Part shown: one piece after another, positions 3,799 to 44,024 of the stretch
How the letters are laid out: the number at the start of each line of letters is the position of its first letter
How positions within the stretch are numbered: position 1 is the first letter of the stretch
Assembly (NCBI RefSeq): GCF_015354345.1
Contig: NZ_JADKYS010000007.1
Coordinates: 1 to 64,000, forward strand
Direction of reading: 5' to 3'
DNA from: Methylophilus sp. 14
GTDB lineage: Bacteria > Pseudomonadota > Gammaproteobacteria > Burkholderiales > Methylophilaceae
Length of the DNA: 64,000 bases
The notes under the pieces: generated by a model
What the model was told of the DNA's origin: nothing
Databases searched by the model: none
Seen by the model: only the letters and a program-made list of their open reading frames with translations
Made by a program: the position numbers and the translations under genes

Positions 3799-4989
3799 TT
3801 AATCACCAGACACTGACGGAATTTTATGAATACTTAAATCTGCGCCGTCAAACTCTGACTCGGCATCCAAGCGAATACCGACCATTTTCTTGATCAAGCC
3901 ATAAACAATGACACCGCCGACCAGGGCAATGGTCACGCCGACCAGCGTGCCAATGATCTGGCTGATCACACTGACGCCACCCATGCCGCCTAATGCTGAG
4001 CAGCCGAAAATACCAGCGGCAATGCCACCCCAGGCGCCACACAAGCCGTGCAGTGGCCATACGCCAAGTACGTCATCAATTTTTAAGCGGTTTTGAGTGA
4101 CGGTAAACGCCCATACAAACAGCGAGCCTGCCACGGCACCGGTGACTAAGGCACCTAGCGGGTGCATGACGTCAGATCCTGCGCAGACGGCGACCAGGCC
4201 CGCCAAAGGACCGTTGTGGACAAAACCCGGGTCATTTTTACCGAGCACCAGTGCGGCCAGGGTGCCGCCGACCAGTGCCATCAGGGAGTTAACAGCGACC
4301 AGGCCGGAGATATTCTGAATCGCTTGTGCCGACATGACGTTAAAGCCAAACCAGCCGACCGTGAGTATCCAGGCTCCCAACGCCAGGAAAGGAATATTGG
4401 ATGGTGGATAAGCGTGCAAACGGCCATCTTTGGTATAGCGGCCATTACGTGCACCCAGCAATACCACCGCCGCCAGCGCGATCCAGCCGCCCATGGCATG
4501 CACCACTACCGAACCAGCGAAATCATGAAAACCAGCGCCAAAACTGGTTTTCAACCAGTCCTGTAAACCGAAATGGTTGTTCCAGGCGATGCCTTCAAAA
4601 AACGGGTAGACAAAACCGACAATGAGAAAGGTTGCGGCCATTTGCGGATTAAACTTGGCACGCTCAGCAATGCCGCCGGACACAATCGCAGGGATAGCAG
4701 CAGCAAAGGTGAGTAGAAAAAAGAATTTGACCAGGTCATAGCCACTTTTCGCCGCTAATACATCCGCGCCGGTGAAAAAGTTGATGCCATAGGCAATGCT
4801 GTAACCAATGAAAAAATAGGCGATGGTGGAGACACAAAAATCCACCATAATTTTAACCAGGGCATTGACCTGGTTTTTTTGACGCACGGTGCCGACTTCC
4901 AAAAAGGCAAACCCGGCATGCATTGCCAGCACCATGATGGCTCCCAGCAATACAAACAAGACGTCATTCGCTGACACTAATGCTTCCAT
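3799..4989 (-). CDS. amtB: Ammonium transporter AmtB
   Basis: A 396-residue Amt/MEP/Rh channel with about 11 membrane helices. Family landmarks include GFAFLEVGTVRQKNQVN, the conserved aspartate region DFAGSVVVHAMGG, and the pore histidine region DDVLGVWPLHGLCGAWGG. The ATG at 4989 is chosen because it follows GGAG by 7 nt; an in-frame TTG at 5001 lacks a ribosome site. No signal peptide is seen, unlike E. coli AmtB. No glnK lies next to it. A sigma-54 type promoter and NtrC-like sites upstream suggest induction under nitrogen limitation. Confidence 0.93.
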   Translation of the reverse strand: MEALVSANDVLFVLLGAIMVLAMHAGFAFLEVGTVRQKNQVNALVKIMVDFCVSTIAYFFIGYSIAYGINFFTGADVLAAKSGYDLVKFFFLLTFAAAIPAIVSGGIAERAKFNPQMAATFLIVGFVYPFFEGIAWNNHFGLQDWLKTSFGAGFHDFAGSVVVHAMGGWIALAAVVLLGARNGRYTKDGRLHAYPPSNIPFLALGAWILTVGWFGFNVMSAQAIQNISGLVAVNSLMALVGGTLAALVLGKNDPGFVHNGPLAGLVAVCAGSDVMHPLGALVTGAVAGSLFVWAFTVTQNRLKIDDVLGVWPLHGLCGAWGGIAAGIFGCSALGGMGGVSVISQIIGTLVGVTIALVGGVIVYGLIKKMVGIRLDAESEFDGADLSIHKIPSVSGD

Positions 4990-5066
4990 TTCGCTCTCCA
5001 ACTATCGTTTTATACACATGGGCGTTTTGCCTTTAGGCACGCCTTATTTTTAATGCGCAGGTTGAA

Positions 5067-5082
5067 AGCAAATATCAGACCA
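5067..5082 (-). promoter_or_regulatory. Sigma-54 promoter of amtB
   Basis: On the minus strand the sequence TGGTCTGATATTTGCT has the GG-N10-GC spacing required by RpoN and matches the consensus TGGCAC-N5-TTGCW at the key bases. The -12 element lies about 80 bp before the amtB start codon, leaving a leader of roughly 65-70 nt. Confidence 0.6.
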
Positions 5083-5132
5083 TTTATATGTGGTTGATTT
5101 TAAAGGAAGTGCATTTTAGGTTATCGACAAAA

Positions 5133-40359: not shown

Positions 40360-41607
40360 TTACTTGCCGTATACCGGGAATTTGTCAGTCAAGGCGTGTA
40401 CTTTGGCTTTCACCGTTGCAATCACTTCTGCATTTTCCGGGTTGTCCAGCACGTCAGCAATCAGGTTAGCCACTTGCTCGGCTTCCGCCTCTTTAAAGCC
40501 ACGCGTCGTAATCGCTGGCGAACCGATACGGATACCCGAAGTCACGAATGGGCTCTCAGGATCGTTAGGAATCGCGTTTTTGTTCACGGTAATGTGCGCC
40601 TGGCCGAGGAAAGCGTCAGCTGCTTTACCGGTCAAGCCTTTAGGACGCAGGTCTACCAAAAACACGTGTGACTCAGTACGGCCAGAGATAATGCGCAAAC
40701 CGCGTGCCGCCAGGGTTTTGGCCATCACGCTGGCGTTTTTCAACACTTGTTCTTGATACACCTTGAACTCAGGTTGTGCTGCCTCAAGGAAAGCGGTCGC
40801 TTTACCGGCGATGACATGCATCAACGGGCCACCTTGCAAGCTTGGGAACACGTTGGAGTTGATGGATTTTTCAAACTCGGCTTTGGCCATGATGATACCG
40901 CCACGTGGGCCGCGCAAAGTCTTGTGCGTGGTAGAAGTGACGAAGTCAGCATGTGGCACCGGGTTAGGGTAAACACCAGCGGCGATCAGGCCTGAGTAGT
41001 GCGCCATGTCGACCATGAAATAAGCACCGACTTTTTTAGCGATTTCGGCCATCCGTGCCCAGTCAAAACGCAAGGCGTAAGCAGACGCGCCACCAATCAG
41101 CAACTTTGGTTTGCACTCGATGGCAATACGCTCCATCTCGTCGTAGTCGATTTCTTCTTTGTCGTTCAGGCCGTAAGGCACAATGTTGAACAACTTGCCG
41201 GACAAGTTGGCCGGGGAACCATGCGTCAAGTGACCGCCGTGGCCCAGGTTCATGCCCATGACAGTATCACCTGGTTTCAGGATGGAGAAATACACCGCCT
41301 GGTTGGCTTGTGAACCGGAGTGTGGCTGCACGTTGGCATACTCAGCGCCATAGAGCGCTTTCAGGCGGTCAATCGCCAGCTGCTCGACTTGGTCAACAAA
41401 CTCACAGCCGCCATAGAAACGCTTGCCTGGATAACCTTCTGCATACTTGTTAGTCAGTTGCGAGCCTTGTGCTTCCATCACCGCTGGGCTGGTATAGTTT
41501 TCTGAAGCAATCAGCTCGATATGCTGATGCTGACGCTCTACTTCAGAAGAAATCATTGTGGCCAACGCCGGGTCTGCAACGCTTAAGTTTCTTGAAAAGC
41601 TAAACAT
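40360..41607 (-). CDS. glyA: Serine hydroxymethyltransferase
   Basis: 415 residues from ATG 41607. Signature segments are [20 protein letters not shown], the PLP lysine in [16 protein letters not shown], and [15 protein letters not shown] near the C-terminus. Interconverts serine and glycine with tetrahydrofolate, an important one-carbon junction in methylotrophs. A longer frame to 41670 lacks a start with a ribosome site. No glycine riboswitch is recognised upstream. Confidence 0.96.
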
Positions 41608-41782
41608 GACGATCAAGTTTCCGTATTCACAAAAATAAAGCGTGATTTTACCATGAGGCGACCCCTGCATGCATCTTTAGCATCACACCGGCAAAGACGC
41701 CCCGGTTTTGTGCTCTAAAAGCGCATCATCAAGTCACAAGATAGTGGATGCAATCATTCAGTGCGCTAATCAGGCCACAGAC

Positions 41783-41900
41783 GCACCAAATAAGTGCACA
41801 CAATCCAACAGTTGCTGAACTGGCAGCAGACCTAAAAAACACAAAAACAAACTATCTATATGATTTAAATAGGATTATTAAACTTGGCATAACTTATGCT
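41783..41900 (+). promoter_or_regulatory. NtrC-like enhancer and sigma-54 promoter of a predicted small RNA
   Basis: The 383 bp between glyA and the AsmA gene holds, on the plus strand, TTGGCATAACTTATGCT (41885-41900) with exact GG-N10-GC spacing and strong agreement with the RpoN consensus. About 90 bp upstream is GCAC-CAAATAA-GTGC (41783-41797), an NtrC-type site identical in layout to the one upstream of amtB in this window. No plus-strand gene follows; a terminator appears 50 bp downstream. Confidence 0.6.
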
Positions 41901-41910
41901 AATTAATAAC

Positions 41911-41970
41911 CGTAAGCGTATATCTCCAAAATCGCTCCCTAAACCCAACTTCGGTTGGGTTCTTTTTTTG
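41911..41970 (+). ncRNA. Predicted nitrogen-regulated small RNA (about 60 nt)
   Basis: Start is predicted 12 bp downstream of the sigma-54 -12 element and the end at a canonical terminator (stem AACCCAAC / GTTGGGTT with TTCG loop, then T7). The transcript has no ATG and no reading frame. Its unpaired 5' part contains pyrimidine-rich ATCTCC and GCTCCCT motifs that could pair with Shine-Dalgarno sequences. Layout recalls NrsZ of Pseudomonas (NtrC/RpoN-dependent), though no homology is claimed. Prediction only. Confidence 0.5.
41942..41970 (+). terminator. Rho-independent terminator (UUCG tetraloop)
   Basis: Perfect 8 bp stem closed by a TTCG tetraloop and followed by C then T7 on the plus strand. 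The opposite strand has no T-run, so it does not serve the minus-strand AsmA gene, whose stop lies 21 nt further right. Confidence 0.85.
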
Positions 41971-41990: not shown

Positions 41991-44024
41991 TTAATGCTTG
42001 CGCGCTTTCAGTTGTTGCAGCGTTTTCTGGCAACCTTCATCTGCCGTATCTGACGCACTGCCAGAATCAAGAAAAGGCAGGATCACCGCAAATGGGTTAA
42101 TCAACGCCAACAGCACGCCGCCTGCGACACGCGCGGCAATCGGCCCGGGGCTCAGCGATACCTTAGGGTCTACAAACGGCCCGGTGACCAGAATGGGCGA
42201 GCGCACCGTTAATGGTGAAAAGTTTTTCGGGCTGGCTTGCAGCTTGAGGTTAAGCTGCTCCTGCCCCAAATTAACATCACCGAGTACGTTCACGGTGGTC
42301 ACCGGCGTATCGATGATGGCAGCCTCCGGCGTCAGCACGCCCTGCTTGGCATGCCAGCCCATGGCCGCACATTGCATGGGCAAGGGTTGGTCGCCTTTCA
42401 TCAGCACGCCCACGGCTTGCGCAATATCCAGGCCTGCGGCTTCCACCACCAGGTGTGAAATCTCGCCTTCGCGCACCATGAGTGCCAGCTGACCATCCAG
42501 CGACTTAAGCAAAGCCGCCGTGGAGCGGCCACGCCCTTGCAAGCTGGCCTTGCCATTTAACTTACCCGAGATATACGCCGGTGCTGCATTGACTGGCGGT
42601 TGCTGAGCAGAGGATTGTTTACCTGATGACTTTTTGGCGTCAGGCGTCACTTTTAGCCATTGCTCCAGACGGATATCGCGCACTGCCAACTGGATATCCC
42701 ACTCGGGCGCAGGCGGTGGTGATAGGTCCGTATTGCTGGCGTCATGTGCATCGATACTCAGCGCACCTGTGAGTATGCCTTGCGCGGTACTGGCTTCGAG
42801 TTCGGCCAGGCTTAATTTGTGTTTAAGCAACGTCAGGCGCAACTTCAAGGGTGAAATCCGCTGTTTAAAGGCATTGCCTAAATCCACCGCATCCAGGTGT
42901 ACATCAATATCTGCATTCATGCGGCCATAAGTACTGAAATCCAGCGACTCGTCTGGAAAAAGCTTACCTGGATGCGCTTTATCCTGCGTTGCGCCAAACG
43001 CGGGCGCTAAATCCGCCAGCATGAGTAGTGCGCCTTGCAATTTGCCCCGCAGCATGGGTGTTTCAGGCGCAAAGTCATACACAAACTGCCCGGATAATCG
43101 GCTACGCCCAATATGCGCAGAAGGGATATTCACTTGCCATTGATCCGTGCCCTTTTCAATATCGGCGCTGACTTTAAAGGCGGCGGTACGCGGGAATGTC
43201 AGGTCGAGCAGATCGCCCACATCGGCCAGCGAGCCCCCCTTGACCTCCACTTTGCCTTTCACGCGCTGCGTGCCGAACAAATCATACACCGCCCCCCGAA
43301 ATTGCGCGTTGACTGCGCCATACTTCAACCAGCCTTGAGAGTTAATCGGCGGAGACTGGCTGCCCTGGGTCGCCACTGGCAAAAAGCCTTGGGTCACGAG
43401 CTCACCCTGTATCGGTAACTTGCGAAACTGGCCATTGATTTTCACGCGGGATTCCGGCGTGGCGAGATGTTCACCTTCTTCGGTAAAAAATGTCACAGCC
43501 AGCTCGGCATCGGTCACGGCGTCAGCTACTTTTGCCTGCCCCTGATTCACTGCCAGTTGCTCAATCAGCGGAAAAGGCCGTGGCGGGCCGCTATCATCCA
43601 GCTCAAACGCCCAACTCGCATGCCGGTCTGCGCGGCGCAGCAAGTAGGTATTGAGTTGATCCGCACGAATCGCTGCAATGCGGTAAGGATCGGTGTCTTT
43701 GAGCGACCACAGATCGCGATAACGCAACGCCAGGTCCAGGCCATGCGCATCGACAAAATAAGGGGCGTCAAAACCTTCTGGCGCCGACAGTTTTAATCCA
43801 CCCACCTGCAGGCGAATGCCACCTAGCAACTGCAAGCGAAACGGACGTTCAATCACGACTGAACGGTGCAATTTATCTTGCAGCAATTGTTGTAAGGGCT
43901 GACGCAGAAACGGCCAGCCGGCGATTTCACTGGCAATCACGGCCAGCACCAACACCAGCAAGATCCCGGCAATCCAGTTGCTGATAGGCGCAGATTTTTT
44001 TGTTGTTATGTCAGTCTCATTCAT
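41991..44024 (-). CDS. AsmA-family envelope protein
   Basis: 677 residues with one N-terminal membrane helix (WIAGILLVLVLAVIASEIAGW) and a long periplasmic part. The N-terminal AsmA region includes RSVVIERPFRLQLLGGIRLQVG; the C-terminal part has GEISHLVVEAAGLDIAQAVGV and the ILVTGPFVDPKVSLSPGPI segment typical of the AsmA C-terminus. AsmA-like proteins belong to the bridge-like lipid transfer group in the envelope. Specific role not known. Confidence 0.88.
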   Translation of the reverse strand: MNETDITTKKSAPISNWIAGILLVLVLAVIASEIAGWPFLRQPLQQLLQDKLHRSVVIERPFRLQLLGGIRLQVGGLKLSAPEGFDAPYFVDAHGLDLALRYRDLWSLKDTDPYRIAAIRADQLNTYLLRRADRHASWAFELDDSGPPRPFPLIEQLAVNQGQAKVADAVTDAELAVTFFTEEGEHLATPESRVKINGQFRKLPIQGELVTQGFLPVATQGSQSPPINSQGWLKYGAVNAQFRGAVYDLFGTQRVKGKVEVKGGSLADVGDLLDLTFPRTAAFKVSADIEKGTDQWQVNIPSAHIGRSRLSGQFVYDFAPETPMLRGKLQGALLMLADLAPAFGATQDKAHPGKLFPDESLDFSTYGRMNADIDVHLDAVDLGNAFKQRISPLKLRLTLLKHKLSLAELEASTAQGILTGALSIDAHDASNTDLSPPPAPEWDIQLAVRDIRLEQWLKVTPDAKKSSGKQSSAQQPPVNAAPAYISGKLNGKASLQGRGRSTAALLKSLDGQLALMVREGEISHLVVEAAGLDIAQAVGVLMKGDQPLPMQCAAMGWHAKQGVLTPEAAIIDTPVTTVNVLGDVNLGQEQLNLKLQASPKNFSPLTVRSPILVTGPFVDPKVSLSPGPIAARVAGGVLLALINPFAVILPFLDSGSASDTADEGCQKTLQQLKARKH

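Follow-up and report, generated by a model that had tools for sequence, protein, structure and literature searches.

A predicted NtrC/sigma-54-controlled small RNA gene beside glyA in Methylophilus and related Methylophilaceae

Known small RNAs and the layout of the glyA-side locus

In the passages cited here, NrsZ of Pseudomonas aeruginosa is an intergenic small RNA induced by NtrB/C together with RpoN under nitrogen limitation; it is 226 nt long, processed, encoded next to ntrC, carries ACAGGCAG and activates rhlA (PMC9308961). The enterobacterial RNA GlnZ belongs to the NtrC/sigma-54 regulon and, as its source describes, represses the carbon-side gene sucA in nitrogen limitation (PMC9731577). 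Among the Betaproteobacteria, the Burkholderia double-hairpin RNAs are described as very short, with CU-rich unpaired parts complementary to ribosome-binding sites and with targets that are partly predicted (PMC5688073), and Bordetella S17 as a CU-rich short RNA with a sigma-A promoter, the short form of which is processed (PMC11722255). NcS25 of Burkholderia cenocepacia (RF02869) pairs with the Shine-Dalgarno sequence of a porin mRNA, and in the passages cited it does not respond to nitrogen depletion and has no upstream sigma-54-like motif (PMC10117139). Among the matches listed from the open-access literature, no small RNA of the Methylophilaceae was described in titles or abstracts.

We analysed a 64,000-nt stretch of the Methylophilus sp. 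14 genome (the window), which is part of contig C13 of a 3.0-Mb genome. A previous inspection of the letters alone (the sequence-only reading) had proposed an NtrC/RpoN-controlled small RNA upstream of glyA, and the comparisons below support this as a prediction. The elements it had named, GCAC-N7-GTGC at 41783, GG-N10-GC at 41885-41900 and a UUCG-loop terminator with seven T residues, are all present, at the positions given in Table 1. An RNA start at about 41911 is expected 12 nt past the GC of the -24/-12 element, and this start and the terminator together would give an RNA of about 59 nt, close to the 60 nt that had been proposed. The pair of anti-Shine-Dalgarno-like pyrimidine motifs attributed to the RNA was likewise found in it. 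The reported absence of a reading frame is true for the RNA, in which the sole start codon is a TTG, whose frame runs without a stop through 5 codons up to the RNA end. A mechanically called ATG frame of 52 aa (41748-41906) spans the promoter region and stops before the RNA; since the distance from the NtrC site to the sigma-54 element shifts by single bases among relatives, this frame is not expected to be conserved. Frames of at least 8 codons are absent from loci L001-L020, and 10 of the 18 other loci have one, running off the end (the prefixes L, G and g denote loci, genomes and genera).

Table 1. Positions of the glyA-side features, their neighbours and the related features elsewhere
Feature	Position	Strand	Detail or basis
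NtrC-like palindrome CGCACCAAATAAGTGCA	41782..41798	.	about 103 nt upstream of GG; GCAC-N7-GTGC at 41783-41797, plus strand, by direct read
Sigma-54 -24/-12 element	41885..41901	+	GG-N10-GC at 41886-41899, inside TTGGCATAACTTATGCT
Predicted small RNA, about 59 nt	41911..41969	+	from promoter, terminator and comparison
Predicted hairpin 1, AGCG/CGCU stem	41915..41936	+	predicted fold; UCUCC (41923-41927) in loop
Two anti-Shine-Dalgarno-like motifs, AUCUCC and GCUCCC	41922..41939	+	ATCTCC at 41922-41927, GCTCCC at 41934-41939
Intrinsic terminator, UUCG loop, T7	41942..41969	+	terminator scan and stem-pair changes; AACCCAAC-TTCG-GTTGGGTT at 41942-41961, then C, then T7 at 41963-41969
glyA (serine hydroxymethyltransferase), divergent neighbour	40360..41607	-	PF00464, E 9.6e-165
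AsmA-family gene, convergent downstream neighbour	41991..44024	-	PF05170
amtB promoter	5067..5083	-	weak GG-N10-GC (9/13) and two NtrC-like sites
Second sigma-54-type double-hairpin RNA (predicted)	G000:C9:38861-38950; L060 1462-1551	-; -	between glgA and orn
xoxF site TTTGGAGA in six genomes with the glyA-side RNA	L256, L231, L284, L280, L287, L235, L269, L295		xoxF site comparison
Porin gene near ntrC, convergent with ntrC	L266 (G000:C10), L290, L285		G000, G007, G011; TTTGGAGATTC before start

Judged within the window by itself, the motifs are close to chance level. Random sequences of equal composition contain a mean of 48 sigma-54-like sites scoring at least 10/13 per 64 kb, and a mean of 5.3 that also have an NtrC-like site of at least 10 upstream. 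The glyA-side sigma-54 site is one of 11 window sites that score 11, with none higher; among the window sites scoring at least 10 it alone has an NtrC-like palindrome of at least 11 upstream. As the scan is near chance, it was not taken as proof. The amtB promoter had been put forward as an internal control, and there the same plan of elements is found, but with a weak -24/-12 element. The amtB gene itself (3799-5001, minus strand) matches TIGR00836 with E 3.7e-93 and 312.6 bits, under the curated cut-off of 343.3; its GG-N10-GC lies about 80 nt upstream of the gene, with NtrC-like palindromes (10/14 each) at -98 and -68 from the GG. The glyA-side locus is judged real by its conservation among relatives, not by its motif score.

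Conservation, predicted promoter control and predicted fold

A DNA search of 61 relatives recovered the glyA-side locus in 20 of the 22 genomes of the genus, the first 20 loci being retrieved by a 291-base BLAST query. Covariance models added a diverged copy next to glyA in G015, bringing the count to 21 of 22; the sole genus genome in which neither DNA search nor models found the locus is G006, which is in 430 contigs. Orthologues of the glyA-side RNA (type 1) also occur in three other Methylophilaceae genera, with strong matches located in g1, g7, g46 and g10. The RNA is adjoined by glyA at 19 of the 20 BLAST loci, the remaining locus starting at a contig end, and at 17 of the 18 type-1 loci from the model search, the exception being L068. 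On the other side, the AsmA-family gene lies downstream within the fetched stretch at just 13 of 20 loci and is therefore not part of the RNA unit.

Among 19 genus loci (for segments whose coordinates sit one base low), mean pairwise identity peaks at 0.92 in the 5′ part of the RNA, followed by the -24/-12 element (0.85), the terminator (0.83) and the NtrC box (0.72); it falls to 0.53 in the spacer between element and start, to 0.47 in the linker and to 0.36-0.38 in the flanks. The comparison thus yields a conservation mosaic in which the promoter parts, the predicted RNA and the terminator stand out. All 38 aligned type-1 loci have an exact GG-N10-GC, a count that is not independent because all loci bar the window's own were retrieved with promoter-containing queries. 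AGCG is present in 33 of the 38, its first base lying 1-5 nt beyond the GC-predicted start. Moreover, the distance to glyA ranges from 195 to 328 nt, whilst the internal spacing is nearly fixed.

The NtrC consensus is TGCACCA-N3-TGGTGCA. Of 37 usable type-1 loci, 27 carry a palindrome scoring at least 11/14 between positions -130 and -40 relative to the GG, whereas about 0.1 is expected from shuffling the same stretches. These palindromes lie mostly at -98 to -111 in the genus and at -70 and -80 in some g7 loci, and no clear palindrome was found between -130 and -40 in L052, L053, L067, L068 and L078. Within the RNA, UCUCC is invariant (33/33 aligned sequences) and the second motif, GCUCCC, varies outside the genus. 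The sequence-only reading had expected conservation across the Methylophilaceae: the -24/-12 element, TCTCC and the terminator bear this out, the NtrC palindrome mostly does, and GCTCCC does so in part outside the genus. The same genome as the glyA-side RNA encodes RpoN (E 7.0e-68) and NtrC (E 1.2e-215), such that the features of an NtrC/sigma-54-dependent gene, namely a -24/-12 element, an upstream NtrC palindrome and both proteins, are found together. Taken together, the comparison suggests that the glyA-side stretch is almost certainly a real transcribed gene; its promoter is very probably sigma-54-dependent, and control of that promoter by NtrC is likely.

A glyA-anchored check covered 80 named glyA loci from many families, a set from which records of the window's genome or its closest kin may have been excluded, with no Methylophilus record among them. 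The strict pattern was present upstream of glyA in 7 of these and in none of 240 control stretches. On the same loci, 10 matches to model R2 were obtained at E<=1, of which the best eight (E<=0.0045) are in the expected place: L082, L084, L088, L089, L092 (titled Methylotenera sp.), L095, L087 (Pseudomethylobacillus aquaticus) and L094. Among 13 loci titled Methylotenera, 5 match R2 at E<=0.0045 and 8 do not. Over the printed stretch, the RNA regions of L084, L088 and L082 are identical to those of L055, L057 and L053 from g7, and therefore g7 includes Methylotenera. Across the family, R2 matches 93 of 187 genomes at E<=0.001, partly through cross-matches to a second RNA described below. R2 kept just 4 base pairs, all in the promoter motif, and is therefore in effect a sequence profile; R1 contains the same 4 spurious pairs. 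As R1, R2 and R3 cross-match both RNA types, raw model tallies mix the two.

The RNA folds better than all 200 of its shuffles; the predicted fold is a double hairpin whose first loop displays UCUCC, and the tail has CUCCC. Both-side changes are seen in 4 of the 8 pairs of the terminator stem, with 99.4% of cells paired. The covariation score over the two helices combined is 0.173 versus 0.074 in shuffles; none of 500 shuffles scored as high, and the score exceeds those of all slid control versions. The number of further pair types is unremarkable, being reached by 361 of 500 shuffles for both helices. The stem of hairpin 1 is almost unchanged across 20 sequences, so that covariation speaks neither for nor against that hairpin.

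A second related RNA and candidate targets

The same genomes contain a second, related RNA gene, predicted by model search, in which TTGGCAC...TGC is followed by AAGCUUCUCCAAAGCUAACUUCUCCUCCCU and a terminator. At each of the three loci examined it sits between glgA and orn; being outside the window, it was invisible to the sequence-only reading. This RNA is predicted to form a double hairpin; UCUCCUCCCU is invariant in it and UCUCCAAA is common to both RNAs. At E<=0.1 the model built for this RNA has matches in 130 of 187 family genomes, spread over 22 of 24 genera, a few of them being cross-matches to the glyA RNA; at E<=1.5e-4 it has matches in 20 of the 24 genera. Among 300 order genomes, which include some of the family, a single weak partial match fell outside the family (G271, E 0.0016). 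Upstream of the ten second-RNA loci scored, no NtrC palindrome was clearly above chance.

Nothing but weak matches to the second RNA came from g14 and g16, two genera with small genomes that mostly keep rpoN and ntrC and in which neither RNA was clearly found. Carrying rpoN or ntrC thus does not predict the RNA, since most reduced genomes retain both genes and show no clear RNA. Two R1 matches, L074 1485-1586 (+) and L075 1500-1607 (-) in G029 and G032, are sigma-54-like RNA candidates that fit neither type clearly and are not next to glyA. Weak R1 matches also lie directly 3′ of an xoxF match in two reduced genomes (G061:C1:148803-148877 and G064:C1:171122-171196), and perhaps these are merely the xoxF terminator.

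Judged by complementarity, the candidate target mRNAs are probably those with a UUUGGAGA ribosome-binding site before the start codon, which is one kind among NNNGGAGA sites. In five genomes, TTTGGAGA-N3-9-ATG and its reversed pattern occur at 23:3, 21:3, 22:5, 18:5 and 10:5, counts that include a G200 hit antisense to the second RNA and a G142 site entered twice. The reversed pattern, which is no Shine-Dalgarno sequence, controls for base composition only; some of the TTTGGAGA excess therefore reflects ordinary ribosome-binding sites. In G000, 18 of the 23 hits have an open frame of at least 60 codons and 5 have only tiny frames.

Genes for xoxF-type methanol dehydrogenase (TIGR03075), picked after the list of site hits was seen, carry the site in all five genomes, with two genes each in G011 and G200. 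A follow-up in 22 other genomes gave an xoxF match at the cut-off in 20. In G096, a genome with the RNA, xoxF has TTTGGAGA. The xoxF site reads TATGGAG or TACGGAG in 15 of 17 readable genomes without detected type-1 RNA, and TTTGGAGA in G028 and G132, from genera without detected type-1 RNA; here 'not detected' is soft because the models miss diverged copies, and diverged glyA-side matches exist (L087, L094, L095). This pattern fits co-evolution of the xoxF site with the RNA, but one event in one clade could also explain it.

The porin gene near ntrC (PF13609) has TTTGGAGA in 6 of 6 genomes of g1 and g46, in 0 of 4 genomes of g7 and g10, and in 1 of 14 readable genomes without the RNA. For hps (TIGR03128) the site was seen in just four g1 genomes and in 0 of 6 genomes of the other type-1 genera. 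With the site not conserved, hps and porin were rejected as targets common to all type-1 genera. Porin has the lowest type-1 duplex energy of the named candidates; ranked against 64 window gene starts, a crude background that leaves the ranking uninformative for most candidates, it stands 4th, xoxF 6th and hps 39th. The type-1 duplex energy to xoxF, hps and porin, three genes chosen for the seed, averages -16.5 versus -8.3 for shuffled RNA, and shuffled RNA reached the three-target mean in 1 of 300 cases for the glyA RNA and 5 of 300 for the second RNA. A single long target for the 20-nt conserved stretch was also rejected, there being no close partner in the 22 genus genomes: besides the RNA locus, a 2-mismatch site occurs in G002 and 3-mismatch sites in G000, G009, G018, G015 and G006. 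Site and duplex data together make xoxF a fair candidate, porin a lineage-specific one and hps a weak one. The target evidence is mixed and partly post hoc. By sequence comparison xoxF is the best candidate, but that it is a real target seems doubtful. As a separate observation, L258 127-1776 (+) has a single 550-aa frame that combines a MoxJ-like solute-binding domain with ankyrin repeats.

Proposed action and comparison with known RNAs

We consider it probable that the glyA-side locus is an autonomous NtrC/sigma-54 small-RNA gene whose product represses selected mRNAs by anti-Shine-Dalgarno pairing. When nitrogen is short, phosphorylated NtrC would bind the upstream palindrome and activate sigma-54 polymerase at the -24/-12 element, as we infer from the conserved sites and from both proteins being encoded in the genome. 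Comparison suggests that a 59-nt RNA would then be made, its most conserved part first, ending at the terminator. UCUCCAAA in the first hairpin loop, and CUCCC after it, could pair with Shine-Dalgarno regions and block translation; this step draws on the complementarity and on the experimentally studied CU-rich betaproteobacterial small RNAs. Given UCUCC in the first loop and the CUCCC tail, an anti-Shine-Dalgarno repressor is the best mechanism, and by analogy the balance leans somewhat towards it. Repression of xoxF would, tentatively, couple nitrogen status to methanol oxidation.

Two other readings keep the RNA and its control and differ in how it acts. The RNA might titrate a protein or another RNA, or pair inside coding regions, as could be suggested by the 20-nt stretch, which lacks a close partner and has few sites with 2-3 mismatches in the 22 genus genomes, and by the patchy conservation of the porin and hps sites. 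Yet the invariant UCUCC of the glyA RNA and UCUCCUCCCU of the second RNA are Shine-Dalgarno complements, and for the CU-rich betaproteobacterial small RNAs the passages cited give ribosome-binding sites as the actual or predicted place of action (PMC11722255, PMC5688073); we regard another mode of action as unlikely. Alternatively, the RNA could dampen translation generally in nitrogen-starved cells without dedicated targets: its UCUCC and CUCCC fit Shine-Dalgarno sequences that are common, and conservation of single targets is patchy. The near invariance of the RNA 5′ part in the genus, which seems to go beyond what a generic anti-Shine-Dalgarno sequence needs, tells against this, and we give such a dampener little credence.

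Readings that dispense with a free small RNA fare worse. A leader with an attenuator would also be short and end in a terminator, but glyA and the AsmA-family gene are both on the opposite strand and the downstream neighbour is not constant, making an attenuator very improbable. That the motifs arose by chance, in a region kept for regulation of glyA on the minus strand, draws on the near-chance motif scores of the window alone; against it stand the variable distance to glyA beside the nearly fixed internal spacing, the poorly kept linker between conserved elements and the plus-strand terminator with covariation, and we find this account hardly credible. Thus the preferred reading remains a small-RNA gene acting by anti-Shine-Dalgarno repression. 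A wider and speculative version, which we think rather unlikely to hold as a whole, is a two-member sigma-54 RNA regulon, with an NtrC-controlled RNA at glyA and a more widespread glgA/orn RNA under another enhancer-binding protein, both showing UCUCCAAA in a hairpin loop; the xoxF site would have turned complementary in lineages with the NtrC member, such that nitrogen shortage would throttle xoxF-type methanol oxidation. Should the preferred reading hold, the nitrogen response of betaproteobacterial methylotrophs would gain an RNA arm, methanol oxidation would be tied in a concrete way to nitrogen status, and two RNA families with recognisable promoters would be new.

Rfam 15 gave 0 matches at gathering score within the window, and with no gathering score reached the glyA-side RNA is filed as a new RNA family. 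RF00519 (suhB/MmgR; gathering score 41) scored 11.8 bits for the glyA-side RNA and, for the second RNA, 22.5 bits in L072 and 12.6 in L060. RF02869, the NcS25 family, was not among the matches listed for the glyA-side RNA; with the second RNA it reached 14 bits, against 46. NcS25 resembles the glyA-side RNA in being a betaproteobacterial small RNA with Shine-Dalgarno pairing, as proposed here, and differs, as far as its description goes, in control. GlnZ is described as an RNase E product cut from the 3′ untranslated region of the glnA mRNA (PMC9731577), whereas the glyA-side RNA would have its own intergenic promoter.

The sequence-only reading had likened the RNA to NrsZ, and the likeness holds for the control circuit; in sequence, size and probable mechanism the RNA is nearer the short CU-rich betaproteobacterial small RNAs. 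Set against NrsZ as described in the passages cited, the glyA-side RNA is 59 nt long, lies by glyA, has anti-Shine-Dalgarno-like motifs and lacks ACAGGCAG; it is controlled like NrsZ and is not a member of the NrsZ family. The double-hairpin RNAs and S17 share with it short length, hairpins and CU-rich unpaired regions, although sigma-54 control is not among the features described for them in the cited passages (PMC5688073, PMC11722255). RF02278 (Betaproteobacteria toxic small RNA) scored 18.4 bits with the glyA-side RNA (E 0.13; gathering score 50) and was absent from the matches listed for the L072 and L060 copies of the second RNA; the two hairpins with CU-rich unpaired regions that characterise it are present in the predicted folds. 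By analogy, the glyA-side RNA probably combines NrsZ-like control with a mechanism like that of the CU-rich repressors.
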